64,000 nucleotides of DNA from Epilithonimonas hungarica (GTDB lineage: Bacteria > Bacteroidota > Bacteroidia > Flavobacteriales > Weeksellaceae): contig NZ_FNBH01000003.1 of the NCBI RefSeq assembly GCF_900102265.1, positions 1 through 64,000 on the forward strand. Reading direction: 5' to 3'. The position numbers and the translations under genes are program-made. The notes beneath the pieces were generated by a model. That model was given only the letters and a program-made list of their open reading frames with translations. It made no database searches and had not been told where the DNA came from. Below, one piece after another: positions 11,174 through 46,134 of the stretch; position 1 is the first letter of the stretch; every line of letters begins with the position of its first letter.

Positions 11174-11175
11174 TG

Positions 11176-12102: not shown

Positions 12103-12147
12103 ACATATATACCAAGTAACTGTTACAATACAACATTTTGATTTTGA

Positions 12148-12314: not shown

Positions 12315-12332
12315 GACAGTTCTTTAAAACTT

Positions 12333-13589
12333 CTACAATTGTGACACAAAAGATTGTTCCAAACCTTTGAATTTATGAGATACTTTTTGCATATCCTTAC
12401 CAACTTTCTCGTTGAGTATCTTGGCGTAAATCTGTGTGGTAGCAATATTTTTATGCCCTAACATTTTGCTTAAACTTTCGAGCGGAACTCCCTCGCTTAA
12501 AAACAAGGTGGCAAACGTATGACGTGCCAAATGAAAGGTTACTTTTTTCTCTTTAAGACAGTCAATCAGCTTGGATATTGCTTTTAGTCTATCATTACAG
12601 GAACTGTTAGACGGAACAGGAAAAACCCTGCCGTCCTTTGACAGTCCTGCATACTTTTCAATAATCATTTTGGGAATATCCAACAGCATTACATTGGACG
12701 ATGTTGCTGTTTTTCTCCTGCGGACAATAATCCACTGGTTTCCGTCAAAGAAATCTTGGATATTACTGTTTTTAAGTCCTTTCATATCTGAATAAGAAAG
12801 TCCTGTAAAGCAACTGAAGACAAACAAGTCTTTAACAAACTCGTCTTTCTTTTTCTCGCAGTTAAACGTTACTAGCTGTTCCAATTCATTCCGCAACAGA
12901 TAACCCCTGTCTTTGTCCTTTTTGGTGTTCTTATACTCGCTGAATGGATTAAAAGCGAGGTGCTTTCTGCTTATTGCCAAACGGCAAAGCGTAGTAAAGC
13001 CAATCATATAATTCCAAATAGTATTATGATTTAGGGTTAAATCGTCACGTAAATAGTAGTCGAAATCCTGTACAAAATTAGAAGTAAGGTCGTTAAACAT
13101 TACATCGGTATAACCGTATTTAGCAAAGGCAAAATTCCGCAGGTGCTTTAAAAGCGTTTTATATCTGAGGTATGTGCCTTGTACCCGAAGTCCGCTGTTT
13201 ACCTTTTTTTCAAAGTCCGCTATAAACTGCTCGTAAAATTTGAAAAAGGTCAGTTCTCCGCTTTCCATTCCGAGAAAAACATTTTTAAGTTTGGCAATGT
13301 TTACCGCTCCCTCGTTCTTTAGGATTTTGGAATAGCATTCTTCAATCCCCAAACGGATTTTGTCAAGTTTGCCGTTTACCTCTTGGGCTTCTCGGCTTTT
13401 GCCTAAAACCCTGCCGTACTTCAAATCCCAATTTGTTGCGGAAATATCCAGCTTGGTACTGAATGCAGACTGTTTGCCGTTTACGGTAATCCTGCACATA
13501 ACCGTAACTTTTCCGTTTTTCTTCGGGGCATTCTTTTTAAGGTAAAACAATACCTTAAATGTTGATTTTTTTGTCGTTTCCATACTCAC
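12333..13589 (-). CDS. int: Tyrosine recombinase/integrase of a CTnDOT-like element
   Basis: A 418-aa site-specific recombinase. Residues 10-60 form an arm-type N-terminal domain (VMCRITVNGKQSAFSTKLD), about 115-215 the SAM-like core-binding domain, and about 230-400 the catalytic domain. Catalytic residues visible: H353 and R356 in HLARHTFAT, H379 in MLGHKN, and the nucleophile Y388 in QIYAK. The usual first Arg (TGLR) is replaced by Ser in FTGLSYSDM (about 261-270), as in IntDOT of Bacteroides elements. It integrates and excises the element with the HTH proteins at 8564-9138. Confidence 0.93.
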   Translation of the reverse strand: MSMETTKKSTFKVLFYLKKNAPKKNGKVTVMCRITVNGKQSAFSTKLDISATNWDLKYGRVLGKSREAQEVNGKLDKIRLGIEECYSKILKNEGAVNIAKLKNVFLGMESGELTFFKFYEQFIADFEKKVNSGLRVQGTYLRYKTLLKHLRNFAFAKYGYTDVMFNDLTSNFVQDFDYYLRDDLTLNHNTIWNYMIGFTTLCRLAISRKHLAFNPFSEYKNTKKDKDRGYLLRNELEQLVTFNCEKKKDEFVKDLFVFSCFTGLSYSDMKGLKNSNIQDFFDGNQWIIVRRRKTATSSNVMLLDIPKMIIEKYAGLSKDGRVFPVPSNSSCNDRLKAISKLIDCLKEKKVTFHLARHTFATLFLSEGVPLESLSKMLGHKNIATTQIYAKILNEKVGKDMQKVSHKFKGLEQSFVSQL

Positions 13590-29990: not shown

Positions 29991-30061
29991 ATTAGTCAAT
30001 ACTTGATCTGACAGTTATAATCAAATTGACTAATTTTAAAACAGATCAAGTATTGACTAAT
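29991..30061. repeat. Long inverted repeat (20-bp exact arms)
   Basis: ATTAGTCAATACTTGATCTG (29991-30010) pairs exactly with 30042-30061 across a 31-nt loop that itself contains a TTGACTAAT copy of part of the arm. It ends 11 bp before the hsp20 stop (minus strand). It may serve as a terminator for hsp20 or be the footprint of a small mobile element next to the SDR remnant. Confidence 0.6.
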
Positions 30062-30071
30062 GCAAATGTTG

Positions 30072-30503
30072 TCAGTCTATTTTAATTTCCTGGACTTCTT
30101 TTCTTTTTGCAGCATTTTTTGTTATATGGATGCGTAACAGACCATCTTCATAATTTGCTTTGATCTGGTCTTCTGTTATATTGTCTGGCAAACGAAAACT
30201 ACGAGAAAAAGAAGAAGTAGAAAACTCCTTCCTGAGATAATTTTCTTTTTCTTCCTTATTCTCAGTACTGGTTTTTGCAGTGATCGTAAGTAGTCCGTCT
30301 TCATTTTCTATTTTGAAATCTCCTTTCTTAAAACCTGGTGCTGAAACTGTTAGTTCATAGGTGCTATTCTTGTCAATAATATTGACTGTAGGATACATAT
30401 TATTGGCAAAAATGGGCTGGCCAAGAAATCCGTCTGCTGTCCAAAAGTTTTCTATTAAGGATTTTAACGACGGTAACGTGCTGTTTTTTTGTAAAGTGTT
30501 CAT
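30072..30503 (-). CDS. Hsp20/alpha-crystallin family small heat-shock protein
   Basis: A 143-aa small heat-shock chaperone. The alpha-crystallin domain covers about residues 40-130: MYPTVNIIDKNSTYELTVSA, then ENEDGLLTITAKT, and the G-L doublet EDGLLRIHI near the end. The N-terminal arm is short. It prevents aggregation of unfolded proteins. Its promoter has a -7 box at 30531-30538 and TGA-N6-TCA sites at 30562-30573 and 30584-30595, suggesting control by the Crp-type hybrid regulator rather than only by heat. Confidence 0.93.
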   Translation of the reverse strand: MNTLQKNSTLPSLKSLIENFWTADGFLGQPIFANNMYPTVNIIDKNSTYELTVSAPGFKKGDFKIENEDGLLTITAKTSTENKEEKENYLRKEFSTSSFSRSFRLPDNITEDQIKANYEDGLLRIHITKNAAKRKEVQEIKID

Positions 30504-30530
30504 AATTGGAATTTTTTTTAATTAATATCC

Positions 30531-30595
30531 CAAAGGTATATTATGAATATCTTTCACACTATGACAGTAATTTCATTTTGTTGTGATTCTGATCA
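30531..30595 (-). promoter_or_regulatory. hsp20 promoter with tandem Crp/Fnr-like sites
   Basis: Minus-strand -7 box TACCTTTG (plus CAAAGGTA, 30531-30538). The distal site TGATTCTGATCA (30584-30595) is exact for TGA-N6-TCA. The proximal site TGACAGTAATTT (30562-30573) keeps only the TGA half. Centres are 22 bp apart and the proximal one is 33 bp from the -7 centre. Confidence 0.6.
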
Positions 30596-30955
30596 CGTCA
30601 TGCTTTCAGCTTGCCAGGCATCAAGTATCTTGATCATCTGAAATGCCTCTGATCCTGAATCATCTATTTCGATTTTCGAGCACTTTAATCCATGATATTC
30701 GGAGTTCGCTAATTGAAGTGGTAACTGCTTCATTGACCGAAGGATTAAGTATTTTACACCAAAGGAATTCAATTTTCCTACAATCGATGGTGAAATGCTG
30801 GTCTCATCACAGATAACAGCGTCTTTTTCATCCGAGAAATGCATATTATTATCCTTTAATGGATCTGTAATGATAGTAATTTTATGTTTTTTGCGATTCA
30901 ATAAGGCAAGGGACTTTTTTGTGTCCTGACTAATATTGTAGATGATGACCTTCAT
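30593..30955 (-). CDS. Stand-alone protein like the N-terminal part of D-lactate dehydrogenase
   Basis: A 120-aa protein starting MKVIIYNISQDTKKSLALLN. Its pattern (IITDPL, DAVICDETSISPSIVGKL, GVKYLILRSM) resembles the first catalytic-domain part of D-2-hydroxyacid dehydrogenases, in which the Arg of the R-S/C motif lies in the active site. The NAD-binding domain is missing. It could be a binding or regulatory fold, or a fragment; the intact promoter and start suggest a real gene. The promoter has the same tandem sites as the other stress genes here. Confidence 0.65.
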   Translation of the reverse strand: MKVIIYNISQDTKKSLALLNRKKHKITIITDPLKDNNMHFSDEKDAVICDETSISPSIVGKLNSFGVKYLILRSMKQLPLQLANSEYHGLKCSKIEIDDSGSEAFQMIKILDAWQAESMT

Positions 30956-30972
30956 AATGTCTGTTCAATATT

Positions 30973-31037
30973 CAAATATATCGAAGAGATTAATTCCAAA
31001 TAGTGCGCATGGTCATTAAAAAAGATGATTTTAGTTA
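30973..31037 (-). promoter_or_regulatory. Promoter with tandem Crp/Fnr-like sites before the LdhA-like gene
   Basis: Minus-strand -7 box TATATTTG (plus CAAATATA, 30973-30980). Proximal site TGCGCATGGTCA (31004-31015) and distal site TGATTTTAGTTA (31026-31037), each one base off TGA-N6-TCA. Spacing is 22 bp between centres and 33 bp to the -7 centre. The distal site overlaps the stop codon of the regulator gene. Confidence 0.55.
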
Positions 31038-32087
31038 ATTTTTAAGCTTTCTAAGACCACTGATGTCAACTATTGTTATGGTACCCGCATTTTTATCGAT
31101 AAGTTTTTCAGCTTTAAAATCGCCGAGGATCCTGCTAACTGTTTCACTGGCCATGCCTGCCATGCACGCCAGATTTTCTCTGGAAATTTCAAAACTATTC
31201 TTATCTGGATGGCCGCTATGTAGTCTGATCAGTACTTCTGCCATTCTTTTTCTGACAGAAAAATAGGCCAGCTGTAATAGTTGTTCCTCATGATTACTAA
31301 CATTTTGCGCCAGGATACTAATGAATTTTTCTGCTATATCAGGATATTTATGAAGTAACTGATCGACTATCTCTTTTGATACAGAGCAAAGTGTGGCATC
31401 TTCCAATACTTCAGCAGTTTCTTTATATTCCTTTCCTGAGAACAAGGAAACAATCCCAAAATAGTTATCCGCATGATAAACGCCTGTCATCAGTTCCTTA
31501 CCATCATCTGTCATTTTGGTGGTCTTTACCGCTCCTGATAAGACCAGATAAATATTATTTGCAGAGTCTCCCTCATAATAGATGACCTGCTTTTTCTTAA
31601 AAGACCTTATTTTCCTTTCGTCAAATGACCTTTTTAATTCCTCAAGGCCATTTATATTCTGAAATAGATTCGTCATCCTACTAAGGTTGGAAGTATAAAG
31701 AGTTTTTTGAAGTTCTTTTTTCTTCAGCCTGCTCTCTATCGCATTTAGAAGCTCAATATCATCATAGGGTTTAGTGAGGTAATCGTCTGCTCCCATTTCT
31801 ATTCCTTTTCTTATCTCTGTTCTATCCGTTTTTGCTGTAATAAAAACAAATGGTATAAGTCCCGTATCTTCTCTTTTGCTCAATAGATGCAACACGCCAT
31901 AACCATCCATTTCAGGCATCATGATATCACACAGGATAACATCAGGTAGATGCTCGATGGCCATATCCACTCCCTGTTTTCCATTGCTGGCCTGAAATAC
32001 TTTATAGTTCGCGAGTTCAAGAATTTCAGATGTATTCTCACGGATATCTTCATTATCCTCAATGATCAGAATGCGTTTTTTTTCCAT
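31035..32087 (-). CDS. Receiver-cNMP-HTH hybrid response regulator (Crp/Fnr type)
   Basis: A 350-aa chimera. Residues 1-120 are a receiver (D11 acid pair in IEDNED, phospho-Asp in ILCDIMMPEMDG at about 54, Lys in YLTKPYDD). About 150-265 form a cNMP-like beta-roll (KKQVIYYEGDSANNIYLVL, GVYHADNYFGIVSLFSG). The last 80 residues are a Crp-type HTH with recognition helix ASETVSRILGDF, which carries the E-x-x-S-R of Fnr that reads TGA half-sites. No Fnr iron-sulfur cysteine cluster is evident. Partner kinase lies 18 bp upstream. Proposed target: TGA-N6-TCA promoters at 30.5-42.6 kb. Confidence 0.9.
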   Translation of the reverse strand: MEKKRILIIEDNEDIRENTSEILELANYKVFQASNGKQGVDMAIEHLPDVILCDIMMPEMDGYGVLHLLSKREDTGLIPFVFITAKTDRTEIRKGIEMGADDYLTKPYDDIELLNAIESRLKKKELQKTLYTSNLSRMTNLFQNINGLEELKRSFDERKIRSFKKKQVIYYEGDSANNIYLVLSGAVKTTKMTDDGKELMTGVYHADNYFGIVSLFSGKEYKETAEVLEDATLCSVSKEIVDQLLHKYPDIAEKFISILAQNVSNHEEQLLQLAYFSVRKRMAEVLIRLHSGHPDKNSFEISRENLACMAGMASETVSRILGDFKAEKLIDKNAGTITIVDISGLRKLKN

Positions 32088-32105
32088 TGCTTTAAAGGAA
32101 CATGG

Positions 32106-33305
32106 TCAATGTTCATTAATTTGTTTTTGAAATGATAGTATAAATTTAGTTCCGGCTCCAGCTTCGCTTTCAAAATAAATCTGTCCATGCATCAGATTGA
32201 CATATCTAAGAACAATATTCAACCCCAAACCAGTTCCGGGTATATTACCGGTATTATGCGCTCTGAAAAAGGGCTGAAAAAGAGAAGGCTGGTCTTCCTT
32301 TGGTATTCCAAGACCATTATCTTTTAATGTCAAAATATATTTTTCTTCATTTATTTCCGTCGAAAATTCAATGAGGGTATGTTCGCCGGAATATTTTATA
32401 GCATTGCTTATCAGGTTTATCAAACAATTTCTTAATAAATGCTGATCAAGATATATGACATTTTCATGTCCTGTATGTTGATAGATGATAATTTGGTCCT
32501 CCTTGCTGATCAATTGCATCTCTTCTGTAAGTTCTTCAGCAAACTTCACAATATCAAATAACTCGTAATGAGGTGTGATGATTCCAGTATCAAGTTTTTC
32601 CAGTGAAAGAAAGTCATTAAGGATAGAATTGAGACCTCCTATCATACTTTTAACTTTATGAAGATGTTTTATGATCTGTGCATTATCGGAAATCTGCAGG
32701 TATTTTTCAATCAATGCTACTGAAAGCTGCATAGAGCTTAAAGGGGTACGGAATTCATGGGAGGCCATCGATACAAAGCGGCTTTTTATCTTGCTGAGTT
32801 CTATTTGTTTTTCCAGTGACTTGTTCGCTTCCTCCCGGGCTTCTTCTAATTTCTGAAGCATTTGTTTGAGCGATTTTGTTCTTTCTTCAACAGTCTCTTC
32901 TAATTTACTGGTATATTTTTTCAGATATTCTTCAGCTTCTTTTTCTTTTGAGAGGTCATGGATAAAACCGGTATAAACGATCCTATCCTGATATTGGACC
33001 TCGCTGACTGCTAGCCTGAAAGGAAATTGGGTTCCGTCTTTTCTCAGCCCCCATACCTCTCGCCCTTTACCTATTATCTTTTTTCTACCTGTATTTTGAT
33101 AATTTGCTATGTAGCCGTCATGTCTTGATTTGTCGGGTTCCGGCATCAGAACGGAAATATTCCTGCCTATCAGCTCTTCTTCCGTATAACCGAAAATTTT
33201 AAGTGCTGAAGGATTTAATGTTTCTATTATACCCCTGTTGTCAATTGTAATTATACCATCAATGGCAGTTTCGATTATAGCATGCAAGAGTTTTGAACTT
33301 TCCAT
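32106..33305 (-). CDS. PAS-domain sensor histidine kinase
   Basis: A 399-aa soluble kinase with no membrane helices. A PAS domain (about residues 5-120, TAIDGIITIDNRGIIETLNP and the FixL-like NISVLMPEPDKSRHDGYI stretch), a coiled coil (about 125-175), then the phospho-acceptor in VSMASHEFRTPLSS (H183) and the ATPase with NLISNAIKYS, DNGLGIPKEDQ and GTGLGLNIV. The HDGYI stretch resembles heme-PAS sensors of the FixL group, so oxygen or redox sensing is possible but not proven. Transfers phosphate to the hybrid regulator 18 bp downstream. Confidence 0.92.
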   Translation of the reverse strand: MESSKLLHAIIETAIDGIITIDNRGIIETLNPSALKIFGYTEEELIGRNISVLMPEPDKSRHDGYIANYQNTGRKKIIGKGREVWGLRKDGTQFPFRLAVSEVQYQDRIVYTGFIHDLSKEKEAEEYLKKYTSKLEETVEERTKSLKQMLQKLEEAREEANKSLEKQIELSKIKSRFVSMASHEFRTPLSSMQLSVALIEKYLQISDNAQIIKHLHKVKSMIGGLNSILNDFLSLEKLDTGIITPHYELFDIVKFAEELTEEMQLISKEDQIIIYQHTGHENVIYLDQHLLRNCLINLISNAIKYSGEHTLIEFSTEINEEKYILTLKDNGLGIPKEDQPSLFQPFFRAHNTGNIPGTGLGLNIVLRYVNLMHGQIYFESEAGAGTKFILSFQKQINEH

Positions 33306-33437
33306 GATTTATAAGTATCTGAATCTTATAAATTTAAGACTTTATATCTAAATTATAATATTAATATTTGAAAATTTAAATTTGAGGTCTGTTTGCTAAA
33401 AATAACCAGCACTTTATGCATAATAAATTGTCATTTA

Positions 33438-34319
33438 TCAGAATCTGAATACGGTATCTGCACTTTCTGGTATGATCAAAAGTGGGATCTGCATATGTTC
33501 TGCTTGCTTCACAGCGTGGCTGCTCTTGATTAAACTTTCAAAGAATCCTCTTTGCTGATGTCCCATCACCAGAATATCAATATCCTTATTTTTCAATATG
33601 TCAAGACCATAATCTACATTTTCACTGTATATACAATTATAACAATATTTGCCATCCAGATTTTTCAGGAATTTTTCTTTTGTATGTTCATAGTTTCTGT
33701 CTTCGGTCACATCATTCGTACTTTGAAGAATATGCGTGATCAATAATTCAGCATTGAAGTATTTGGCAAAATTGATCAGAGATTGTGCTGTCTTCACATC
33801 TTTTTTATTCAGATCTGTGGAAAAGGCAATTTTTGTAATGGGTTTGTATTTATGATTTTCAGGGATCAAAAGAAGCGGGTACTTTGTTTTATCGATCATT
33901 TGAATGCTGTTGCTGCCCAGGAAAAACCGTTTGATCGTTCCGGCGCCTGTCATACCCATAACGATCAAAATAGTATTTTTGTGCGATGCCATATCATTTA
34001 TCACTTTGATCGTATCGCCGACCTCCGACAGATAGTCCACGGATGGGTGAAAAGGGAAGGCCTCATCTCCCAATAACTTGTTTTCCTTTTGTTCCAGATC
34101 TTTAACCTGTTTTTTTAATTCTTTATTGTTCTCTTCGACCAGTTCAGGATATTCATATAATACCCAAGAGATCTGTCCCAGCATAGGACTTTCGGAAGGT
34201 AGGGAAAAGGCGTGGCACAATTCGATATTGGCCTTTAATGGACTTGCCAGGTGCAAAGCATAGTTTGCCGCATTCTTGGAAGCTTTTGAAAAATCTGTGG
34301 CTACTAAAATTGTTCTCAT
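33438..34319 (-). CDS. Universal stress protein with two UspA domains
   Basis: A 293-aa tandem Usp. Domain 1 (about residues 1-150) begins MRTILVATDFSKASKNAANY and has the ATP-binding loop IVMGMTGAGTIKRFFLGSNS. Domain 2 (about 155-293) starts ITKIAFSTDLNKKDVKTAQ and has LVMGHQQRGFFESLIKSSHA, only partly like the G-2x-G-9x-G(S/T) motif. It lies 12 bp after the L,D-transpeptidase gene and is probably co-transcribed with it. Role: survival under energy or oxygen limitation, by family. Confidence 0.9.
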   Translation of the reverse strand: MRTILVATDFSKASKNAANYALHLASPLKANIELCHAFSLPSESPMLGQISWVLYEYPELVEENNKELKKQVKDLEQKENKLLGDEAFPFHPSVDYLSEVGDTIKVINDMASHKNTILIVMGMTGAGTIKRFFLGSNSIQMIDKTKYPLLLIPENHKYKPITKIAFSTDLNKKDVKTAQSLINFAKYFNAELLITHILQSTNDVTEDRNYEHTKEKFLKNLDGKYCYNCIYSENVDYGLDILKNKDIDILVMGHQQRGFFESLIKSSHAVKQAEHMQIPLLIIPESADTVFRF

Positions 34320-34331
34320 AATGTATATTTT

Positions 34332-35699
34332 TTATTTATTTGCAATGACTTTTTCTATCAGACCGCTGTCAAGATGATATATATCTTTGTAAAATACAGG
34401 TCTCCCGTTTTTTATTGAATATGTTAGATAAGTGATGATGATGGGAATGGGTTGTTTCAAAACAAAGTCTTTTCTTTTGTAATTGGCCATAGCATTTTCC
34501 AAAATGGGCAGTTGATCTTCAGAACGATCATTTTCCAATAACAACTTGGCAAGCTTATCAGCTTGTTCTACACGAACGCAGCCATGGCTCAATGCCCTTT
34601 CTTCTTTGTTGAATAATTGCTTTTGTGAGGTATCATGTAGATAGATACCGTAGGTGTTTTCAAACCGGAAGACTACTGCTCCCAATGCGTTATCACAGCC
34701 TGACGACTGTCTGACGCTGTATGAAGAGGTATTTCTGCTGATCTCTTTCAGACGTGCTGGATTGATTGTGACCTCATTACCATTTCTGTCATATATTGAG
34801 TAATGGTGGTCTGTCAAATATTTGCTGTTTTTTAGGATCTTTGGCAGCATTTCTTTTCGAAATATACTCTGAGGGACCTTCCAGTCAGGTGCCGTCGTAA
34901 AATGAGTGACCACACTTTCCAAGATAGGGCTGGGAGTCGAGGGTTTTCCTACGATCACCTTAAAATCACGTTGTATCTTATTTGTATGAAGTTCTAATGA
35001 ATAAGATGGGATATTCACTAAAATATAATTTTCACTTATAGTATTTATCCATCTTAGACGCTCCATATTGATGACGATCTTCTCTATCTGTGATTGAGAA
35101 GTATTGACCAGGTCATTTGCATAGAGTGTGTTCAAATGATCCTGCAATTGTTTGTAAGCATGGATCTGAGGCTGAACTTCGAGAATAGTTCTCAGGAAAT
35201 CGTTTTGGCTGAGTGCAAAGCTCAATTTATCATCAGAGCAAAACCCATTTATATAGCCGGCATCGATATCAGATGAGGTATATTTTGGATTGTACTTTCC
35301 AAAATGTAGATTGTTGATGAAAGTAATAAGAGCATCTGTCATCAAAATATCCAGCCAAGCCCTTTCGTCTGAGTCATTAAATTTAGAATCAATTATTGCC
35401 ATCAATTTTTCAGGAGATAGCTCCTGGCAATGATAACCTGAAGAAGATAATCCAAATTGATCGGCATAACCTAGCAACAGTACTGCTATTTCAGGTTGGT
35501 CTGAATTCGAGCCTTCAAACCAGGTATATCCCATATTGTCTTTCGTATAAAATCTGAGAACTGATTTTGGATAATACAATTTCGAAAGATTGGTCTTATC
35601 CTGCAATAACGTAGCAATTCTGGTCGTTTTATCTGAATTTTGAGCCTGTAAAACGAGGTTGAAGAAAACAAGAACTACAAAAGTTGCAATAGCTTTCAT
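34332..35699 (-). CDS. L,D-transpeptidase (YcbB-like, YkuD domain)
   Basis: A 455-aa periplasmic enzyme that makes 3-3 crosslinks in peptidoglycan. Start at 35699 gives a signal peptide (MKAIATFVVLVFFNLVLQAQ); the ORF extends 21 codons upstream without one. An N-terminal scaffold domain (about residues 30-210), then the YkuD domain with VNIPSYSLELHTNKIQRDFK, and the catalytic motif SHGCVRVEQ (Cys about residue 375) preceded by YGIYLHDTS. Length and layout match YcbB/LdtD. It shares an operon with Usp. The reinforced wall fits a stress island. Confidence 0.92.
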   Translation of the reverse strand: MKAIATFVVLVFFNLVLQAQNSDKTTRIATLLQDKTNLSKLYYPKSVLRFYTKDNMGYTWFEGSNSDQPEIAVLLLGYADQFGLSSSGYHCQELSPEKLMAIIDSKFNDSDERAWLDILMTDALITFINNLHFGKYNPKYTSSDIDAGYINGFCSDDKLSFALSQNDFLRTILEVQPQIHAYKQLQDHLNTLYANDLVNTSQSQIEKIVINMERLRWINTISENYILVNIPSYSLELHTNKIQRDFKVIVGKPSTPSPILESVVTHFTTAPDWKVPQSIFRKEMLPKILKNSKYLTDHHYSIYDRNGNEVTINPARLKEISRNTSSYSVRQSSGCDNALGAVVFRFENTYGIYLHDTSQKQLFNKEERALSHGCVRVEQADKLAKLLLENDRSEDQLPILENAMANYKRKDFVLKQPIPIIITYLTYSIKNGRPVFYKDIYHLDSGLIEKVIANK

Positions 35700-35788
35700 A
35701 TTATGGGAATTGGTATTGTAAAATTCCAAATAATTGTCTTCCCAAATAATGATCTTGGTCACTAAAAAATATGATCTAATCCTGTTCC

Positions 35789-35853
35789 TGACCAGTATCA
35801 GATTTATAAGTAACCGGCGTCATATCATTTCGCAGAACAATTCAAGACCTTTG
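35789..35853 (+). promoter_or_regulatory. Promoter with tandem Crp/Fnr-like sites before the stress lipoprotein
   Basis: Distal TGACCAGTATCA (35789-35800, exact), proximal TAACCGGCGTCA (35811-35822, one mismatch), -7 box GACCTTTG (35846-35853). Centres are 22 bp apart and 33 bp from the -7 centre. The sites lie between this gene and the divergent L,D-transpeptidase gene and might also serve the latter, though no -7 box at the right spacing is seen there. Confidence 0.6.
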
Positions 35854-35897
35854 AAATGTTTTTGGTAATGGTCATTCTAACATTAAAAATATATATC

Positions 35898-36512
35898 ATG
35901 AAAAAAGTACAGTATAGTCTTTTGGTAATTCTTATGATATTAATGAATTCCTGTAATTCCACTCAGATCGTCAGCAGTTGGAGGGCATCCGACAAACAGA
36001 TCCATCCTTCAGACTGGAAAAAAGTTTTGGTGGTGGCTCTGTTGCGAAACGAGACCAACCGCCGTAGTGCCGAAGATGAAATGGTAAAATACCTCAACGG
36101 AAAAGGGGTCACTTCCTACAGTTATTTGGACGAAAATTTTGACCGCAAAGATGAAGAGACATTGAGACATAAAATTAAAAATGATGGCTTTGATGCGGCC
36201 ATTACTATGCGTTTGATCGATGTTGACAAAGAAAAAGTTTATGAACCTGCACAGTATTATATGTATCCGATGTACTATGATGACTTTGTAAAATATTACT
36301 ACAGAAATTGGATGCATTACAATACTCCGGGTTATTATACAATTACTAAAAAATTCATTATAGAAACGGTCATCTATTCTATTCAGGATGATAGAATAAT
36401 ATGGTCCGGAATCACGGCAACCTACGATCCCAAAGGTGTCAGACGTCTAACTTCCGAAATCGCTCATGTCATTCGCAACAGAATGCAGCAGGAAGGATTT
36501 ATTGAAAAGTAA
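35898..36512 (+). CDS. Stress-associated lipoprotein
   Basis: A 204-aa lipoprotein from ATG 35898; signal MKKVQYSLLVILMILMNSC with Cys at 19. The mature part (STQIVSSWRASDKQIHPSDW, VLVVALLRNETNRRSAEDEM, GFDAAITMRLIDVDKE, then a Tyr-rich YYMYPMYYDDFVKYYYRNW, and FIIETVIYSIQDDRIIWSGI) has the layout of DUF4136/CsgG-like envelope lipoproteins. Function unknown. It is divergent from the L,D-transpeptidase and has a promoter with tandem Crp-like sites. Confidence 0.75.
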   Translation: MKKVQYSLLVILMILMNSCNSTQIVSSWRASDKQIHPSDWKKVLVVALLRNETNRRSAEDEMVKYLNGKGVTSYSYLDENFDRKDEETLRHKIKNDGFDAAITMRLIDVDKEKVYEPAQYYMYPMYYDDFVKYYYRNWMHYNTPGYYTITKKFIIETVIYSIQDDRIIWSGITATYDPKGVRRLTSEIAHVIRNRMQQEGFIEK

Positions 36513-36674
36513 CAGGAATGAAAACATGGATTCCAAGAGGCGACTTACCAGATCAGATGATAAGACCAATAAAATTAGTATTGATAAATAATATCAGTTA
36601 TTACTGATATCCGATGTATTTTATAAAGAGCGTTCAAAAAAACTATAATATACAAAAAACAGACAAGATCAATT

Positions 36675-36739
36675 TGACCATCATCATATATTATTATGAT
36701 CTTCATTATTTTATTTTCTTTGAAATTTCTTGAACTTTG
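36675..36739 (+). promoter_or_regulatory. Promoter with tandem Crp/Fnr-like sites before the first BON gene
   Basis: Distal TGACCATCATCA (36675-36686, exact), proximal TGATCTTCATTA (36697-36708, one mismatch), -7 box GAACTTTG (36732-36739). Spacings 22 and 33 bp. A small hairpin ATATCAGT/ACTGATAT lies upstream at 36591-36610. Confidence 0.6.
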
Positions 36740-36756
36740 GAAGATAAAGCAAGACA

Positions 36757-37422
36757 ATGAAAACAAATGCAGAATTACAGCGAGATGTTCAGGATGCCAT
36801 TAACTGGGAACCACAGTTAAAGAACATCAATATCGGCATAACAGCCACAGACGGCATTGTTTGTCTTACAGGCACTGTGGACAATTATGCTAAAAAAATA
36901 CAGATCGAACAGGTCGTGAAAAAGGTTTTTGGAGTCAACATTTTTGTAGAAAACATCGATGTGAAATTACAGAAACATGAAACAAAAAATGATATTGAAA
37001 TAGCCAAAGAGATCATGGCAGCGTTTGAGGCCAACCCCGTTATTCCACAAGAACAACTAGAAGTGAAGGTTGAGAATGGCTGGGTAACTTTGACAGGAGA
37101 ACTTTCCTGGGACTATTTACGGGACGTTACTGAAAATACGATCCAGCATCTCCCATGGATCAAAGGTATATACAACAACATCACCATTGTACCCGAGATG
37201 CATCATTATACTATTGACAAGAAAGATATTATGAAAGCACTTAAAAGAAGCTCTATTGATGACCGGGAAATTACCGTTTCCGTATCAGGAACAACAGTTA
37301 GGCTCACAGGCACAGTACATACTTGGCATCAGAGAGAAGAGGCAGCAAGGATCGTCTGGAAAACACCAGGTATAAAAAATCTAAAGAATGAATTGAAAGT
37401 GGACTATGAATATGATCTATAG
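36757..37422 (+). CDS. Triple-BON-domain protein (OsmY-like), copy 1
   Basis: A 221-aa protein made of three BON domains (about residues 5-70, 80-145, 150-218). Conserved turns are ITATDGIVCLTGTVDNYAKK, VEVKVENGWVTLTGELSW-type and ITVSVSGTTVRLTGTVHTWH. No signal peptide, so it acts in the cytoplasm or is exported otherwise. BON proteins bind phospholipid and protect the envelope under osmotic stress. It is a paralogue of 40812-41474 with the same promoter type. The Mla genes follow 90 bp downstream. Confidence 0.92.
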   Translation: MKTNAELQRDVQDAINWEPQLKNINIGITATDGIVCLTGTVDNYAKKIQIEQVVKKVFGVNIFVENIDVKLQKHETKNDIEIAKEIMAAFEANPVIPQEQLEVKVENGWVTLTGELSWDYLRDVTENTIQHLPWIKGIYNNITIVPEMHHYTIDKKDIMKALKRSSIDDREITVSVSGTTVRLTGTVHTWHQREEAARIVWKTPGIKNLKNELKVDYEYDL

Positions 37423-37512
37423 ATAATCGATTGTCCCAAATGCGTTCAGTATTATAAAAACCTATTCATTTGGCAGAGATTATAAACAAACCATATAATA
37501 GATATAAAAGTC

Positions 37513-38271
37513 GTGGAATCCGATCTGAAAAACAGTTTTTTGCTCATCGGCAGTATTGCATCTTTCTCCGTCCGTTTTTTCCGGGAGATCTTTAAACCGG
37601 GTTTCGAATTCAAGGAATTTATCAGGCAATGTTTTGCGGTGGGCTATAGATCATTACCATTAGTGACGATCACAGGTTTTATTATGGGTCTGGTATTGAC
37701 CATCCAGTCCAGACCGGCAATGTCTAAATTTGGTGCCGAGTCCTGGATACCCAGCATGGTCTCGTTATCTCTGATCAGGGAGATTGCACCAGTGATCACA
37801 GCTCTGATCTGCGCAGGCAGGATATCGTCCGGGATGGGAGCAGAATTGGGCTCGATGAAAGTAACAGAGCAGATCGATGCTATGGAAGTTGCGGCCATCA
37901 ATCCATACCGTTATCTGGTGATAACCAGAACAATGGCTACGACATTAATGATTCCGATCTTGGTATTTTATGCTGATCTGATAGGCATTATGGGAGGGTT
38001 TGTGGGCATCAGTATGCATAGCGGTGGCAATTTACAGCACTACTTTTCTACAGTATTCGATTCTTTGGAGTATGAGGATATCTTACCCGCGACTATAAAA
38101 ACTTTCTTTTTTGGTTTTTTTATAGGGATTATTGGCTGTTATGAGGGATTCAATGCCTCCGGAGGTACTGCAAGCGTTGGCAAAGCAGCCAACTCTGCTG
38201 TGGTTTCCGCATCGCTTAGCATTTTTATCATTGATATGATAGCAGTACAACTAACCGACCTCTTTTTCTAA
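37513..38271 (+). CDS. mlaE: MlaE-type ABC transporter permease
   Basis: A 252-aa inner-membrane permease of the lipid-trafficking MlaFED class. Start is a GTG. Five to six helices; the MlaE signature stretch LSLIREIAPVITALICAGRIS followed by GSMKVTEQIDAMEVAAINPY (about residues 85-140) and the C-terminal TFFFGFFIGIIGCYEGFNAS. MlaE moves phospholipids to or from the outer membrane. 5 bp before mlaF; the three genes make an operon. Confidence 0.92.
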   Translation: MESDLKNSFLLIGSIASFSVRFFREIFKPGFEFKEFIRQCFAVGYRSLPLVTITGFIMGLVLTIQSRPAMSKFGAESWIPSMVSLSLIREIAPVITALICAGRISSGMGAELGSMKVTEQIDAMEVAAINPYRYLVITRTMATTLMIPILVFYADLIGIMGGFVGISMHSGGNLQHYFSTVFDSLEYEDILPATIKTFFFGFFIGIIGCYEGFNASGGTASVGKAANSAVVSASLSIFIIDMIAVQLTDLFF

Positions 38272-38276
38272 ATATC

Positions 38277-39056
38277 ATGCAAACCAGAGAAATTATCCAA
38301 GATACACACCGCGAGCCTGCTGTCGAAGGAGTATTGATAGAATTTAAAGATGTTTATAAATCTTACGGCGACAATAAAGTTCTGAATGGAATTAATTTTA
38401 GCATTAACAAAGGCGAGAATCTTGTCATACTTGGCAAATCGGGTTCGGGAAAATCTGTAACTGTAAAATGTCTGGTTGGCCTCACAAAGGTAGATAGCGG
38501 CGAGATCATTGTTTTTGGGAAGGACATTACAAAACTGAATGAAGACGGGCTCAACTCGGTTCGGATGAAAATAGGATTTCTCTTTCAGAGTGCTGCATTG
38601 TATGATTCGATGACCGTAAGGCAGAACTTGGTTTTTACCTTACAGCATCACAACAAAAAACTGACCGAAGCACAAATGGAATCCTATGTAATGGACGCGC
38701 TGAAAAATGTCGGATTGCTGGAATCCATAGATAAATTTCCAGCAGAGCTTTCCGGTGGAATGAAGAAAAGAATTGGGCTGGCCAGGGCATTGATCATCCA
38801 GCCGGAAATTATGATCTATGACGAGCCGACAGGAGGACTGGATACCATCACCGCTCGTGAGATAATCGATCTGATATCTGAGATAAAGATAAAATATAAG
38901 ACCACTTCAATAATTATAACACATGACCTTACCTGTGCCAAGTACAACAGCGACAGGATCATAGTCCTCAAAGACGGCGTTGTGAAAACTGAAGGCCGTT
39001 TCAGAGATATTGAAAATAATACGGACGAATGGGTAAGATCCTTTTTTGAAAAATAA
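38277..39056 (+). CDS. mlaF: MlaF-type ABC transporter ATP-binding protein
   Basis: A 259-aa ATPase. Walker A GKSGSGKS (about residues 53-60), Q-loop FLFQSAALYDSMTV as in MlaF, signature LSGGMKKRIGLARALI (about 161-176), Walker B IMIYDEPTGGLD and switch ITHDL. The QSAALYDSMTV stretch and the SGGMKKR signature are typical of MlaF rather than of importers. It lies between mlaE and mlaD. Confidence 0.93.
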   Translation: MQTREIIQDTHREPAVEGVLIEFKDVYKSYGDNKVLNGINFSINKGENLVILGKSGSGKSVTVKCLVGLTKVDSGEIIVFGKDITKLNEDGLNSVRMKIGFLFQSAALYDSMTVRQNLVFTLQHHNKKLTEAQMESYVMDALKNVGLLESIDKFPAELSGGMKKRIGLARALIIQPEIMIYDEPTGGLDTITAREIIDLISEIKIKYKTTSIIITHDLTCAKYNSDRIIVLKDGVVKTEGRFRDIENNTDEWVRSFFEK

Positions 39057-39062
39057 ACAGTT

Positions 39063-40127
39063 ATGGGCAAAGAATCATTGAATAATTTGAAGCTTGGGGT
39101 TTTTGTAGTGGCAGGGATCATCCTTTTTATAATGACCGTTTACTTTATCGGCCTCAACAGAAATCTGTTCGGGTCCAACTTTGTACTGCGTTCAGAATTT
39201 AAAAATGTCAGTGGGCTAAAGCAGGGCAGTGCCGTGCGTTTATCGGGAATAGATGTAGGTACGGTGAGCAAGATCAAATTCATTTCAGATTCACTGGTAA
39301 TGGTCGATCTTTTGATCCGAAAAGATGTACAGCAATACATAAAAAAAGATGCTGTTGCCAGCATTGCATCGGATGGTCTGGTAGGTGATAAGGTCTTTAT
39401 CATTTCACCTGGGACCAGTTCTGCAAGTACTGTAAAAGATAACGACATTATCGCATCTTCAAAGACCGTCGAAATAGAGGATATACTTTCCAGCATAAAA
39501 AAGAGCGCAGATAATACAAAAATAATCACGAATGAGCTGGTCCAGTTCAGTCAAAAGATGAACAATAAAAATGGACTATTGACAAAAATCCTTAACGACA
39601 AATATTTTGCTGCAAGGATAAACAAAACAATTACAAACCTCCAAAAGAGTTCTGAAGATCTCGCTCAATTTATGCCCATGCTTAAAAACAAGAACGGAAT
39701 CGTAGCAAAACTTTTGACCAATGAAAAATGGGCAGAGGATGTAGAGGTCATAATATCAAATTTGAACAACAGCACCAATGAGATCAGTCGATTTACCATC
39801 AAATTAAATGATAAGGACAATATACTTTCCAAAATACTTTCAAATGATAGTCTGGCAATTTCATTAGATAGAACACTCAGAAATATTGAGACTAGTTCAG
39901 ACGAGTTGGTACAATTCACTTCAAATATAAATAATAAAGATAATGTCATCTCCAGGCTTACAAACGATCCACAGCTTGGGAAATCGGTCGATTCTATAAT
40001 CACTAACGTTGAAAAAGGCGTTGATGAACTGAGGGAGATAGAAAATGCCGCCAAACATAATTTTCTGTTGAGAGGTTATTTCAACAAAAAGAAAAAAAAG
40101 GACGAAAGAAAAAAAAATAGTGATTGA
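39063..40127 (+). CDS. mlaD: MCE-domain protein (MlaD type)
   Basis: A 354-aa protein with one N-terminal membrane helix (about residues 9-31, LGVFVVAGIILFIMTVYFIG), an MCE domain (about 36-125: LRSEFKNVSGLKQGSAVRLS, GIDVGTVSKIKFISD, ISPGTSSAS) and a long helical tail in which units of the form NKNGIxAKLLTNExWxxxV recur, predicted to form a periplasmic tube or coiled coil. It has the length of extended MCE proteins. It ends with a lysine-rich tail. Forms the substrate-binding ring with MlaE and MlaF. Confidence 0.9.
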   Translation: MGKESLNNLKLGVFVVAGIILFIMTVYFIGLNRNLFGSNFVLRSEFKNVSGLKQGSAVRLSGIDVGTVSKIKFISDSLVMVDLLIRKDVQQYIKKDAVASIASDGLVGDKVFIISPGTSSASTVKDNDIIASSKTVEIEDILSSIKKSADNTKIITNELVQFSQKMNNKNGLLTKILNDKYFAARINKTITNLQKSSEDLAQFMPMLKNKNGIVAKLLTNEKWAEDVEVIISNLNNSTNEISRFTIKLNDKDNILSKILSNDSLAISLDRTLRNIETSSDELVQFTSNINNKDNVISRLTNDPQLGKSVDSIITNVEKGVDELREIENAAKHNFLLRGYFNKKKKKDERKKNSD

Positions 40128-40811
40128 GCCTGTTTTATTATCTTAGTATAAACAGGTCTTGAGGTAATCTGCCATACTTTCTTTAATACAAGTAAAGCAT
40201 ATTTTTTATTTTTGAAATCGGGTACCTTCATAGCCTTTCCTTCTATTCCTCAAAAAAATTCTGGATTATATCAAGGGTATAGATCTCTGGGTGCAATGTC
40301 GTGCCAGAGGTGTTGGATTCCTATCAATTTTACATTTGGTTTTAAGGGTTTCAAAAATCATCAGGTTATTGGGATACACTAGATCTTTTAGTTCGATATA
40401 GCTACCAACTCTAGAAACAATACTGTAATTTTTGTATAAAGAACTCAGTAATTAATGACTTTGATCACTAAAAAAAATGATATGGTGTTGTCATTATTAT
40501 CTCATTAAATGCAAAGTGCATCATCATTCGATTTTCGTAGATAACTATTTACTGCAAACCGTATAGGCAAAATTTTGATACTGACGACAATCAGATTCAA
40601 TGATGATGAGCATCATTTAATTTCAAGTAAAGTTTACGGAACTTTGGAACACTTTAATAACGAAAGGATTACGTAATCGATTTTCAAAGGATCAAATCAA
40701 AATTAAAAATTGTTTAACAGGAAACAACATTGCTAAGTATGCTTATCATACTTTTTAAAGATCAGTATTACTAATGCAGTTTCAAATTTCCAAAATTAAA
40801 AGTTCAAAAAA
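40128..40811. other. 684-bp gap after mlaD with regulatory sites for the second BON gene
   Basis: No gene found. It holds a weak CCTGTTT/AAACAGG hairpin after mlaD (40129-40156), an isolated exact TGA-N6-TCA site (TGACTTTGATCA, 40456-40467) without a nearby -7 box, the tandem sites and -7 box of the BON gene (40582-40646), and a hairpin AAGTATG/CATACTT with a T run (40735-40753) inside its predicted leader. The 160-nt leader is long for these genes. Confidence 0.55.
40582..40646 (+). promoter_or_regulatory. Promoter with tandem Crp/Fnr-like sites before the second BON gene
   Basis: Distal TGACGACAATCA (40582-40593) and proximal TGATGAGCATCA (40604-40615) are both exact TGA-N6-TCA. -7 box GAACTTTG (40639-40646), identical to copy 1. 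Spacings 22 and 33 bp. This is the best example of the set. Confidence 0.65.
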
Positions 40812-41474
40812 ATGAAAACTAATTCAGAATTACAGAAAGACGTTCAGGATGCCATCAAATGGGAGCCACTATTGCATTCAGCAGAGATCGGGGTGATCGT
40901 AAAAGACGGTGTCGTTACTTTAACAGGTACAGTTGACAGCTACATCAAAAAGACAGAAGCCGAAGATGCCGCTAAACGAGTGGCTGGCGTAAAAGCTTTG
41001 GTTGAGGACATTGAAGTGAAATTTCCCAATTCCTTGTCAAAAACTGATGCCGACGTTGCTAATGATGCTTTGGCAGCGTTAAAGGCGGACTGGTCTGTTC
41101 CGGATGAAAAAATAGTGGTAAAAGTTGAAGATGGATGGATCACTTTGGAGGGCGAACTGCCTTGGAATTACCAGAAAGAAGCCGCCAAAAGAGCGGTAAA
41201 ATATCTTAAAGGTGTGAAAGGTGTAATTAACAATATTAAGATCAAGTCTGAAGTTCACGATAAGATTGAGCAGAAAGCAGTTAAAAACGCACTTAGAAGA
41301 AGTTCGATTGACGATAGCGATATCGATGTTTCAGTGTCAGGCACAACGGTGACATTGACGGGAGTGGTCAACTCTTGGTATGCCAAGGAAGAAGCAGGCC
41401 GTATTGCATGGAAAACACCAGGTATATGGCATGTGAAAAATGAATTGGCTGTTGATTACGAATACGCCTTTTAG
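40812..41474 (+). CDS. Triple-BON-domain protein (OsmY-like), copy 2
   Basis: A 220-aa close paralogue of 36757-37422 (both begin MKTNxELQxDVQDAI and end VDYEYxx). Three BON domains with the turns VIVKDGVVTLTGTVDSYIKK, VEDGWITLEGELPWNYQKE and DVSVSGTTVTLTGVVNSWYA. No signal peptide. Likely first gene of an operon with Dps and the SHOCT protein. The duplication with the same promoter layout argues that the whole gene with promoter was copied. Confidence 0.92.
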   Translation: MKTNSELQKDVQDAIKWEPLLHSAEIGVIVKDGVVTLTGTVDSYIKKTEAEDAAKRVAGVKALVEDIEVKFPNSLSKTDADVANDALAALKADWSVPDEKIVVKVEDGWITLEGELPWNYQKEAAKRAVKYLKGVKGVINNIKIKSEVHDKIEQKAVKNALRRSSIDDSDIDVSVSGTTVTLTGVVNSWYAKEEAGRIAWKTPGIWHVKNELAVDYEYAF

Positions 41475-41503
41475 CAATCATTAGATCTTAAAAAATTATT
41501 ACA

Positions 41504-41581
41504 ATGAGATCAACTGATGATCAAAACAAATCAGGAGTGCCGGTAGTGCATAAAGCTGAAAATCAGAACAATGAGGGCTGA
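41504..41581 (+). CDS. Possible 25-aa peptide between the BON and Dps genes
   Basis: An ATG 30 bp after the BON stop opens 25 codons (MRSTDDQNKSGVPVVHKAEN, then QNNEG). Very polar. It ends 47 bp before the dps ATG. I do not recognise it; it may be a small stress peptide or chance. Confidence 0.35.
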   Translation: MRSTDDQNKSGVPVVHKAENQNNEG

Positions 41582-41627
41582 AAAACAGTTCAAAAATATC
41601 AATAAGCAAACCACTAATAATAATATT

Positions 41628-42104
41628 ATGAAAATACAGATAGGTATAGGAGATGTTCATCGCCAAACCGTGGCAGATGAATTGGTAAAAATATTGGCAG
41701 ATGAGAATGTTTTGTATATCAAAACAAAAAATGCCCATTGGAATGTTGAAGGTTCTGATTTTTATGAAAAGCATAAATTCTTTGAAAGCCAGTTCAGACA
41801 ATTGGATGAGGCAATAGACAATGTTGCCGAAAGGATTCGTTTTCTGGGGCATTATGCACCTGCAACATTAAGGTCATATCTGAACCTGACACATCTCACG
41901 GAACAGACAAGAGAGAAAAACGACAGCCAAGGATTTATTACAGAACTATTGGCAGACCATCAAAGTATCATTATTATACTACGCGAACATATTAAAACTT
42001 TTGTCGATGAAGTTCACGATGCGGGAACTTCAGATTTCATAACGGGGCTTATGAAAGAACACGAGAAAATGGCATGGTTTCTACGTTCACATTTAAAAGA
42101 TTAA
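41628..42104 (+). CDS. dps: Dps family DNA-protecting ferritin-like protein
   Basis: A 158-aa ferritin-like protein from ATG 41628. The first helix has NAHWNVEGSDFYEKHKFFES (about residues 29-48) with H and the following DEAIDNVAERI giving the inter-subunit ferroxidase ligands (H31, H43, D58, E62 region). Dps dodecamers store iron, quench peroxide and coat DNA. The N-terminal tail is short without strong lysine repeats. It follows the BON gene and precedes SHOCT by 4 bp. Confidence 0.92.
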   Translation: MKIQIGIGDVHRQTVADELVKILADENVLYIKTKNAHWNVEGSDFYEKHKFFESQFRQLDEAIDNVAERIRFLGHYAPATLRSYLNLTHLTEQTREKNDSQGFITELLADHQSIIIILREHIKTFVDEVHDAGTSDFITGLMKEHEKMAWFLRSHLKD

Positions 42105-42108
42105 AATT

Positions 42109-42327
42109 ATGTTTTACGATTATTATAACTATCATTTCTGGGGAATGGACCTTGTTTGGTGGGTCATTTGGTGCATCGTGATCTTCTGGATCTTTGCTAC
42201 GCCTTATGATATACCGGGACAAAGGAAAAAAAAGGATTCACCACTTGATCTGCTGAAAAAACGTTATGCTTCAGGAGAGATCAAAACCGAAGAGTATCAG
42301 GAAAAGAAAAAAATTCTTGAAGGCTGA
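42109..42327 (+). CDS. SHOCT domain membrane protein
   Basis: A 72-aa protein: a Trp-rich membrane helix (DLVWWVIWCIVIFWIFATPY, about residues 14-33) and a C-terminal SHOCT motif (LDLLKKRYASGEIKTEEYQE, about 46-65). SHOCT segments mediate oligomerisation. It lies 4 bp after dps and ends the operon. Confidence 0.85.
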   Translation: MFYDYYNYHFWGMDLVWWVIWCIVIFWIFATPYDIPGQRKKKDSPLDLLKKRYASGEIKTEEYQEKKKILEG

Positions 42328-42673
42328 TCCTACGAATAATATATCACTTTACAAATGCAGTCATCAATCCTTTTAATATAAAGGACTATTGGGACTGCTT
42401 TTTATATAATAATACTTGAAAAAAAGGCATTTTATCTATAACCAGAATTTGTTCGAAGCTACAAGCTTTCTTCTTAATAATACGTGCTTCAGATCATCCC
42501 GACATGTGACGAGCGTCATTTTTTTACCTGTCAATCGATCCCTATCTTTAGTCAATATTTGAAACGTCAATTTTGCAAGGCCTGTCGTTGTTTTTTATTT
42601 ATTGGCAAAAAACTCTAGGTCGATGAGTTGAGGTCCAGATGTTTTATTGCCAATACATTTAAAATATAAACAA
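42328..42673. other. 346-bp gap before the DUF1003 gene
   Basis: No gene. It contains GACTATTGGGACTGCTTTTTA-type A/T-rich DNA and the tandem Crp-like sites and -7 box of the DUF1003 gene (42485-42550, given separately). Transcript leader would be about 115 nt. Confidence 0.5.
42485..42550 (+). promoter_or_regulatory. Promoter with tandem Crp/Fnr-like sites before the DUF1003 gene
   Basis: Distal TGCTTCAGATCA (42485-42496, one mismatch), proximal TGACGAGCGTCA (42507-42518, exact), -7 box TATCTTTA (42543-42550). Centres 22 bp apart; 34 bp to the -7 centre. Confidence 0.58.
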
Positions 42674-43366
42674 ATGCAAACCAGCTACATCGGTCATCAG
42701 GAGATTCCGGAAGGAGAAGAGGTCAAAGGAGCAGACCTTAGAGAAGGTATATATGATCTCATCAATAAAAATTTCCCTCAGTTCGGCAAAGATGATTTTA
42801 TTTCCATTACCGAGCTCAATCAATACAGGAGGTTGTATCTGACCTCATTGATTATCGAGGAAAGGGGAGAGCTGGAGATCATAGACCTGGATGTGATGGA
42901 TGCCATTAAAAATAATTCCATCCTTTCTGAAAATATCCAGGACGAAATCGAGGCAGACCTGACGATTGGAGAAAAACTAGCAGATAAGGTCGCTTCTTTT
43001 GGGGGTAGCTGGACATTCATACTCGTATTCTTCTCATTTATAATGATCTGGATCTTTATCAATATATGGATTTTGTCGACAAGACCTTTCGATCCATATC
43101 CATTTATCTTATTGAATTTAATTCTTTCATGCCTGGCTGCAATCCAGGCTCCCATCATTATGATGAGCCAGAACCGGCAGGAACAGAAAGACAGGATCAG
43201 AGGCGAACACGATTATAAGATCAATCTGAAGGCTGAACTGGAAATAAAACTACTGAGTGAAAAAATAGACCATTTGCTGGTCAACCAAAACAAAAAACTA
43301 TTGGAAATTCAGGAATTACAAACGGATTATCTGGAAGACCTGATGAACGTTCTTAAGAAGAAGTGA
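42674..43366 (+). CDS. DUF1003 family membrane protein
   Basis: A 230-aa protein from ATG 42674. The DUF1003 core (about residues 95-190) contains GEKLADKVASFGGSWTFILV, a first helix, then WILSTRPFDPYPFILLNLIL, a second helix and the conserved APIIMMSQNRQEQKDRIRGE. It ends in a coiled coil. Role unknown; in many bacteria these are cyclic-nucleotide or stress-associated. Promoter as in the other stress genes. Confidence 0.9.
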   Translation: MQTSYIGHQEIPEGEEVKGADLREGIYDLINKNFPQFGKDDFISITELNQYRRLYLTSLIIEERGELEIIDLDVMDAIKNNSILSENIQDEIEADLTIGEKLADKVASFGGSWTFILVFFSFIMIWIFINIWILSTRPFDPYPFILLNLILSCLAAIQAPIIMMSQNRQEQKDRIRGEHDYKINLKAELEIKLLSEKIDHLLVNQNKKLLEIQELQTDYLEDLMNVLKKK

Positions 43367-43464
43367 TCTAATGGAAAAGACCTCAATTGAAAGTAAATAA
43401 CTTCTGATCTTTTCTAGTCAAAATAATGATCAATCATTAACAGTTAATCTTAAAAACATTTACA

Positions 43465-45966: not shown

Positions 45967-45967
45967 A

Positions 45968-46134
45968 TGGCGACAATTTCCTAGAAAACATATCCTTAAA
46001 AAAGGCAACTCTTATTTTGGAACTGCCAGTTCTGCAGAGGTCACTCCCAACACCATCAGTTGCTACCTGCAAAGCGGGTTCTTACTAAGTGTCAAATATT
46101 CAATCTGTTATTCGAAATACAAGAAGGATGGATG
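45968..46134 (+). pseudogene. Possible remnant of an IS200/IS605-like transposase C-terminus
   Basis: An open frame without a start directly after the ATPase stop reads KKGNSYFGTASSAEVTPNTI, then SCYLQS, before a stop at 46134. The shape (GxSYF-x-T-x-EVT-x-TI-x-x-YLQ) recalls the C-terminal helix of IS200-type TnpA. Too short to be sure. Confidence 0.3.

Follow-up and report, generated by a model that had tools for sequence, protein, structure and literature searches.

Paired TGA-N6-TCA promoters and a receiver-Crp/Fnr hybrid regulator in Epilithonimonas hungarica: a candidate low-oxygen/stress regulon

The window analysed here, the first 64,000 nucleotides of contig NZ_FNBH01000003.1 of Epilithonimonas hungarica (Weeksellaceae), carries a stress-type gene cluster between 30.0 and 46.0 kb. 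The cluster encodes a hybrid regulator, composed of a receiver, a cNMP-binding fold and a Crp/Fnr helix-turn-helix (HTH) in one chain, together with a PAS histidine kinase and a series of stress-type proteins (Table 1). An earlier note, made from the sequence alone, had described six promoters of this cluster with tandem TGA-N6-TCA sites. All six pairs are read directly at the positions it gave, and their centres are 22 bp apart in every case. The site nearer to the gene (proximal) is separated from a TAnnTTTG-like -7 box by 23 bp in five promoters and by 24 bp in that of the DUF1003 gene, i.e. by 33 and 34 bp from centre to centre. The hsp20 promoter has indeed lost one half of its proximal site, and the distal site of the LdhA-like promoter touches the end of the hybrid regulator gene. 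The roster of the note, right for these six promoters, missed a seventh, located in front of the L,D-transpeptidase (LdtP) gene. This weaker member has the register of the others and keeps half of its distal site; its gene more likely starts at a later ATG, near 35699.

Table 1. Genes and paired promoters of the cluster (USP, universal stress protein; ORF, open reading frame)
Feature	Position	Strand	Elements or basis
hsp20 gene (target)	30072-30503	-	Pfam HSP20
hsp20 promoter	30531-30595	-	distal 30584-30595, proximal 30562-30573, -7 box 30531-30538 (TACCTTTG)
LdhA-like ORF, 120 aa (target)	30593-30955	-	
LdhA-like promoter	30973-31037	-	distal 31026-31037, proximal 31004-31015, -7 box 30973-30980 (TATATTTG)
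Hybrid regulator	31035-32087	-	Pfam Response_reg, cNMP_binding, HTH_Crp_2
FixL-like PAS histidine kinase	32106-33305	-	best PDB matches FixL heme-PAS
USP gene, behind the L,D-transpeptidase gene	33438-34319		Pfam Usp
L,D-transpeptidase (LdtP) gene (target)	34332-35762	-	Pfam YkuD
L,D-transpeptidase promoter (seventh)	35719-35783	-	proximal 35750-35761, -7 box 35719-35726 (GAATTTTA)
Lipoprotein promoter	35789-35853	+	distal 35789-35800, proximal 35811-35822, -7 box 35846-35853 (GACCTTTG)
Lipoprotein-like gene (target)	35856-36512	+	named by eye
BON1 promoter	36675-36739	+	distal 36675-36686, proximal 36697-36708, -7 box 36732-36739 (GAACTTTG)
BON-domain gene 1 (target)	36757-37422	+	Pfam BON
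mla-type transport genes, behind BON1	37513-40127		named by eye
Promoter-like paired element, between mlaD and BON2	40433-40489	-	pair-like part 40456-40489
BON2 promoter	40582-40646	+	distal 40582-40593, proximal 40604-40615, -7 box 40639-40646 (GAACTTTG); exact match
BON-domain gene 2 (target)	40812-41474	+	Pfam BON
Dps-like gene, behind BON2	41571-42104		below NCBIfam cut-off for Dps
Small SHOCT-like ORF, behind BON2 with the Dps-like gene			by eye
DUF1003 promoter	42485-42550	+	distal 42485-42496, proximal 42507-42518, -7 box 42543-42550 (TATCTTTA); 24-bp gap
DUF1003 gene (target)	42647-43366	+	Pfam DUF1003
P-type ATPase gene, behind the DUF1003 gene	43465-45966		P-type ATPase families

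Counted on its own, the bare 34-bp pattern with up to three mismatches shows no enrichment in the window (57 places against 53.6 expected), and the analysis therefore turned to the register with the -7 box and to genome comparisons. With the hybrid regulator protein as query, 80 loci were fetched from named records, of which 79 (19 Weeksellaceae and 60 others; near-identical L022 and L001-L022 omitted) entered the spacing test; here and below, G, L and C numbers denote genomes, loci and contigs. Exact TGA-N6-TCA pairs at a spacing of 22 bp occur 84 times, 24 in Weeksellaceae and 60 in the other loci, and none of the other 84 spacings between 6 and 90 bp gives more than four in both groups together. 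Four control motifs show no 22-bp peak, TGA-N7-TCA excepted. Full flanks are available for 83 of the exact pairs. In 77 of these 166 flanks, a TAnnTTTG box (0-1 mismatch) stands at a gap of 23 bp, compared with at most nine for any other gap from 10 to 44 bp. The box orients 80 pairs, and outside the site core their distal position 9 is A in 71, while the proximal one is G in 42 and A in 21. No triple exact array was found among the 84 pairs.

The promoters of the window were then scored with models built from relatives. A profile of 60 relatives' promoters, based on sequence only, with Weeksellaceae orthologs included and the window excluded, was derived from the 80 by leaving out 15 near-duplicates or doubtful ones and boxes with two mismatches. 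Genome-wide, its ranks 1-4 all fall in this cluster and correspond to three of the six claimed promoters and that of the L,D-transpeptidase gene (E 3.5e-5); the LdhA-like promoter follows at rank 11. Out of 127,872 window positions, a weight matrix made from 50 non-Weeksellaceae promoters, near-duplicates kept, gives the six promoters ranks 1, 2, 3, 4, 6 and 10; the L,D-transpeptidase promoter has rank 7. The DUF1003 and BON1 sites, read on the opposite strand, account for ranks 5 and 9, and a place at 52288 with no assigned meaning for rank 8. The DUF1003 promoter scores 18.5 with a gap of 24 bp and 0.7 with a gap of 23 bp; since its reverse strand reaches 17.4, its direction is less certain, and this promoter is the least certain of the set. 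The paired element between mlaD and BON2 has rank 22 (weak); it is similar to the LdtP and LdhA-like promoters, and no gene was seen downstream of it. At up to one mismatch, 4 of 19 places among the matches listed for the own genome (G000, 3.96 Mb in 12 contigs) fall within this 12-kb stretch. Counts over the whole genome at two mismatches, 311 compared with 93 for the pattern reversed, were set aside, because the reversed pattern is a poor control.

Orthologous promoters keep the layout as well. In 20 Weeksellaceae loci (L022 included, some of them near-identical species pairs), the leave-family-out matrix yields 92 matches, compared with 0-3 for 20 column-permuted matrices. It marks the genes of Hsp20 (18/18), the LdhA-like protein (18/19), the lipoprotein (10/10), BON proteins (16/22), the L,D-transpeptidase (8/17) and the P-type ATPase (1/2). 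None of the mla (0/33) or dps (0/8) genes of these loci is marked, and DUF1003 orthologs are absent from them. In other families, paired sites precede 16 of 63 kinase-like genes, the matrix having been trained on some of these loci. The genes found behind paired promoters in relatives include those of a heavy-metal-type P-type ATPase, a full-length 2-hydroxyacid dehydrogenase, USP, YceI, MlaE and the PAS kinase itself. The bifunctional cbb3 oxidase CcoNO (FixNO) also occurs there, in L082 and L097 by NCBIfam and in L082 and L063 by Pfam; by eye, about 12 are alike. Such genes are part of what an oxygen-limitation regulon of FixK type would be expected to include. Collectively, these data confirm that the paired layout is real.

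The distribution across genomes indicates that the hybrid most likely reads the paired sites. Its presence was called at E 1e-60, a threshold that misses the G142 copy cut by a contig end. The 116 of 247 Bacteroidia genomes with the hybrid contain 607 exact pairs (mean 5.2), against 70.9 per control spacing (0.61 per genome; mean of ten spacings). Among 24 families with both kinds of genomes, pairs are more numerous with the hybrid in 19 (within-family permutation p 4e-4). The 119 Weeksellaceae genomes were searched for full promoters, i.e. both sites and the -7 box with at most one mismatch; these were found in 7 of 7 genomes with the hybrid versus 14 of 112 without it (Fisher p 2e-6). A threshold of two mismatches, with the -7 box included, was rejected: it matched 98 of the 119 genomes, 91 of them without the hybrid, and one mismatch was therefore used. 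At least 27 of 71 listed pairs from 14 genomes (pairs among the matches listed, at most eight per genome) lie within 25 kb of the hybrid gene, where 0.85 would be expected. Linkage is nevertheless not the whole cause of the association, since the promoters found in G355 are far from the regulator gene on the same contig.

Because the hybrid is present in only seven of the 119 Weeksellaceae genomes and relaxase-like and integrase-like ORFs (by eye) lie upstream in the window (5420-13589), the stress cluster (30000-46000) may be a mobile island. Within the genus, full promoters occur in 2 of 2 genomes with the hybrid and in 1 of 12 without it (p 0.03), and the single hybrid-less match is also present outside the island in G000.

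The hybrid is made up of parts of known kinds. Its receiver carries a phospho-acceptor, Asp54, and an Asp is found there in 81 of 81 aligned hybrids. The output is HTH_Crp_2 by Pfam, not LuxR-type as in FixJ. The Crp part has two cysteines, at positions 97 and 171, and lacks the N-terminal Fe-S cysteines of Fnr. Its scores are 75.7 bits for NCBIfam Fnr (cut-off 228) and 72.3 bits for FixK of Caulobacter (cut-off 300). By these cut-offs and by the parts that define each family, the protein does not qualify as Fnr, FixK or FixJ. When 32 Crp parts were placed in a small tree, the 23 sampled hybrids fell into one group (support 0.94) and the plain proteins into another (0.94); the hybrid of L022 (Epilithonimonas caeni) is 98% identical to that of the window. 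Three loci of one family (L146-L148, in G163, G111 and G139) encode, next to kinase-like ORFs, receivers as proteins of their own, 218-221 aa long, whose ends look LuxR-like by eye. Their receivers are 40-49% identical to that of the hybrid, and they are possibly an unfused FixJ-like counterpart.

The neighbouring kinase, whose FixL-type heme-PAS the earlier note had overlooked, points to the signal. The best PDB matches of its PAS are FixL heme-PAS domains (E 4.6e-31), and it keeps the FixL-position His62 and Arg82, within SRHDGY and GKGRE. A proximal His and a distal Arg are the defining residues of the heme-binding FixL PAS. With 172 bits against the NCBIfam equivalog sens_FixL_Rhizob (cut-off 850), the kinase is FixL-like and not the rhizobial equivalog, and heme binding is predicted. 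In each of the 80 related loci, the regulator has a PAS kinase relative next to it on the same strand. The FixL-position His is present in 79 of 81 kinases and the Arg in 43, including 40 of the 41 beside regulators with an E-x-x-S-R recognition helix (L022-L061 and the window). Since the FixL-type Arg is concentrated in this group, to which the window belongs, it is here that oxygen as the signal appears best supported.

We propose, with a probability of roughly 0.77, that the cluster is a low-oxygen/stress regulon in which a FixL-like kinase controls the receiver-FixK/Fnr-like hybrid. Low oxygen would be sensed by the heme-PAS of the kinase, and the active kinase would phosphorylate the receiver of the adjacent hybrid, whose FixK/Fnr-like DNA-binding part belongs to the same chain. 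Two dimers would then occupy both TGA-N6-TCA sites on one face of the DNA, 22 bp or two helical turns apart. The proximal dimer, at about -41.5, could take the place of the -33 element and contact RNA polymerase as a class II activator, rather than act as a repressor, and the distal dimer, at about -63.5, would stabilise it. The note had also placed the two sites two turns apart with the proximal one in the class II position, an assignment favoured by the spacing, the -7 register and the conservation.

Several observations weigh against this reading. In the window, no paired promoter precedes the kinase and regulator genes in the top list of the matrix, and in the 20 Weeksellaceae loci none was marked before the USP, kinase or regulator genes (0/20 each). 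Genome-wide, the hsp20 (E 0.87) and DUF1003 (E 0.36) promoters are not significant alone with the relatives' profile. The bare pattern shows no excess, and the TGA-N7-TCA control gives 7 pairs at 22 bp, 6 at 44 bp and 3 at 66 bp in the other-family loci. Genomes without the hybrid (131 of the 247) still contain 146 exact pairs (mean 1.1), against 63.6 per control spacing (0.49 per genome), and in 5 of the 24 mixed families pairs are fewer with the hybrid. The recognition helix, ETVSR at 315, does have the E-x-x-S-R pattern emphasized by the note. It is a weak argument, because the pattern is present in only 41 of 81 hybrids, E-x-x-I-R taking its place in the remaining 40, and exact pairs at 22 bp accompany both kinds (in 35 of 39 and 27 of 40 loci, respectively). 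The FixL-type Arg is found in only 3 of the 40 kinases beside E-x-x-I-R regulators (L062-L101).

The remaining points against it concern other Crp/Fnr proteins. The own genome has eight HTH_Crp_2 matches above cut-off. In the hybrid-less G134, G036 and G002, a plain Crp/Fnr gene has an exact pair directly downstream, with matrix scores of 46.0, 39.0 and 33.4; by eye, this pair stands before a short ORF and the gene of a CcoI-like ATPase. The 22-bp layout is not exclusive to the hybrid. The plain proteins of these genomes bear several N-terminal cysteines and may sense oxygen directly. A different Crp/Fnr protein of the cell could also be the reader of the sites in the window, for instance the plain 237-aa paralog next to the own cbb3 operon, which groups with those plain proteins (split support 0.94), the hybrid being a mere neighbour. 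We consider this unlikely: a relative of the paralog is present in 119 of 119 Weeksellaceae genomes (in G305 as a 122-aa fragment) and cannot, for this reason, explain why full promoters follow the hybrid both in the family and in the genus. Presence and absence across genomes and conservation favour the hybrid, the candidate of the note, as reader, though not as the exclusive one.

Cross-binding by other Crp proteins is possible, given the eight HTH_Crp_2 matches and similar single sites near small Crp proteins. On contigs C3 and C9 of the own genome (L106, L110, L113, L121, L137-L139), single TTATGA-N6-TCATAA-like sites lie 23 bp from a TAnnTTTG box, near genes of ~198-aa Crp paralogs and of a receiver-only protein. 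They probably represent a second, single-site Crp/Fnr regulon. Two genes of the same genome match ccoN (cbb3 oxidase) above cut-off (L144, L145), and no exact 22-bp pair was seen in the stretches fetched around them. An unpaired site in the cbb3 operon of this genome (L145) was rejected as a member, being without the -7 register (by eye).

A second explanation, about as improbable as a reader other than the hybrid, would have the proximal site activate alone, the distal one serving a different protein or acting as a brake by blocking the stretch of the polymerase alpha subunit. In class II promoters, the alpha subunit usually binds where the -63.5 dimer would sit, single sites at the same -7 distance do exist in the own genome, and the LdtP promoter has only half a distal site left. 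On the other hand, the two sites have the same core, conservation beyond the core is no poorer at the distal site (as its position 9 with A shows), and the spacing is fixed at 22 bp, as expected for two copies of one protein in contact. Finally, a chance or low-complexity similarity noticed afterwards, which the bare-pattern count alone would allow, has a negligible probability and is excluded by the independent tests, namely the 22-bp peak, the gap-23 register, the leave-family-out matrix, the orthologs and the genome comparisons.

A broader and more tentative generalisation, which we rate somewhat below even odds, would be a fixed promoter grammar that Bacteroidota use when oxygen is limiting. 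In it, a pair of contiguous Fnr-type dimers, at -41.5 and -63.5, would replace the -33 element. The grammar would stay constant and the sensor would be swapped, between plain cysteine-bearing Fnr-like proteins and receiver-Fnr hybrids with FixL-like or other PAS kinases. In the hybrids, phosphorylation would license cooperative binding to the pair, as in DevR. The paired layout, spread over many Bacteroidia families, provides a readable promoter code by which low-oxygen regulons can be predicted from sequence. It also comes with a probable regulator, and it is a natural case in which to test why two dimers of an activator stay two helical turns apart.

The LdhA-like ORF gave no match of its own in Pfam, NCBIfam and PDB searches. 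It resembles the start of a 2-hydroxyacid dehydrogenase, and in several Pedobacter-type loci its position is occupied by a full-length enzyme of this kind, in others by a short version of 134-157 aa. For the lipoprotein-like gene, no family was found in Pfam or NCBIfam.

By title and abstract start, the literature searched, with most subscription papers outside the search, gave no description of these sites or of the hybrid in Bacteroidota. The parts are of known kinds; a receiver-Crp/Fnr fusion with a fixed paired promoter was not found there. One close parallel is the FixL-FixJ-FixK2 oxygen cascade of rhizobia, with which the locus shares a FixL-type heme-PAS kinase, a receiver, a Crp/Fnr-type output, the TGA-N6-TCA box and, in relatives, FixNO behind the promoters. 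Here, in contrast, the receiver and the Crp/Fnr part form one chain, two boxes lie 22 bp apart and the targets in the window are stress genes. Such a fusion of FixJ- and FixK-like functions would shorten the classic cascade. Class II Crp/Fnr activation, with its site near -41.5, would have its likeness in the proximal site, which lies next to the -7 element and, by this geometry, some 41.5 bp before the presumed start; the second contiguous site at about -63.5 and the Bacteroidota -7 box set the present promoters apart. The plain Fnr-like regulators of G036, G134 and G002 share the 22-bp pair and differ by their N-terminal cysteines and the lack of a receiver. Hsp20 and USP are among the targets of DevR/DosR of Mycobacterium. 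That regulator has a NarL-type DNA-binding domain and another box, so the likeness is one of working principle with an unrelated family. In this respect DevR/DosR is the nearest analogue: as described for it (PMC3029386), it combines hypoxia, kinases, a phosphorylated receiver and closely packed sites, and without the receiver an adjacent weak site is not bound cooperatively, while the proximal site overlaps the -35 element.

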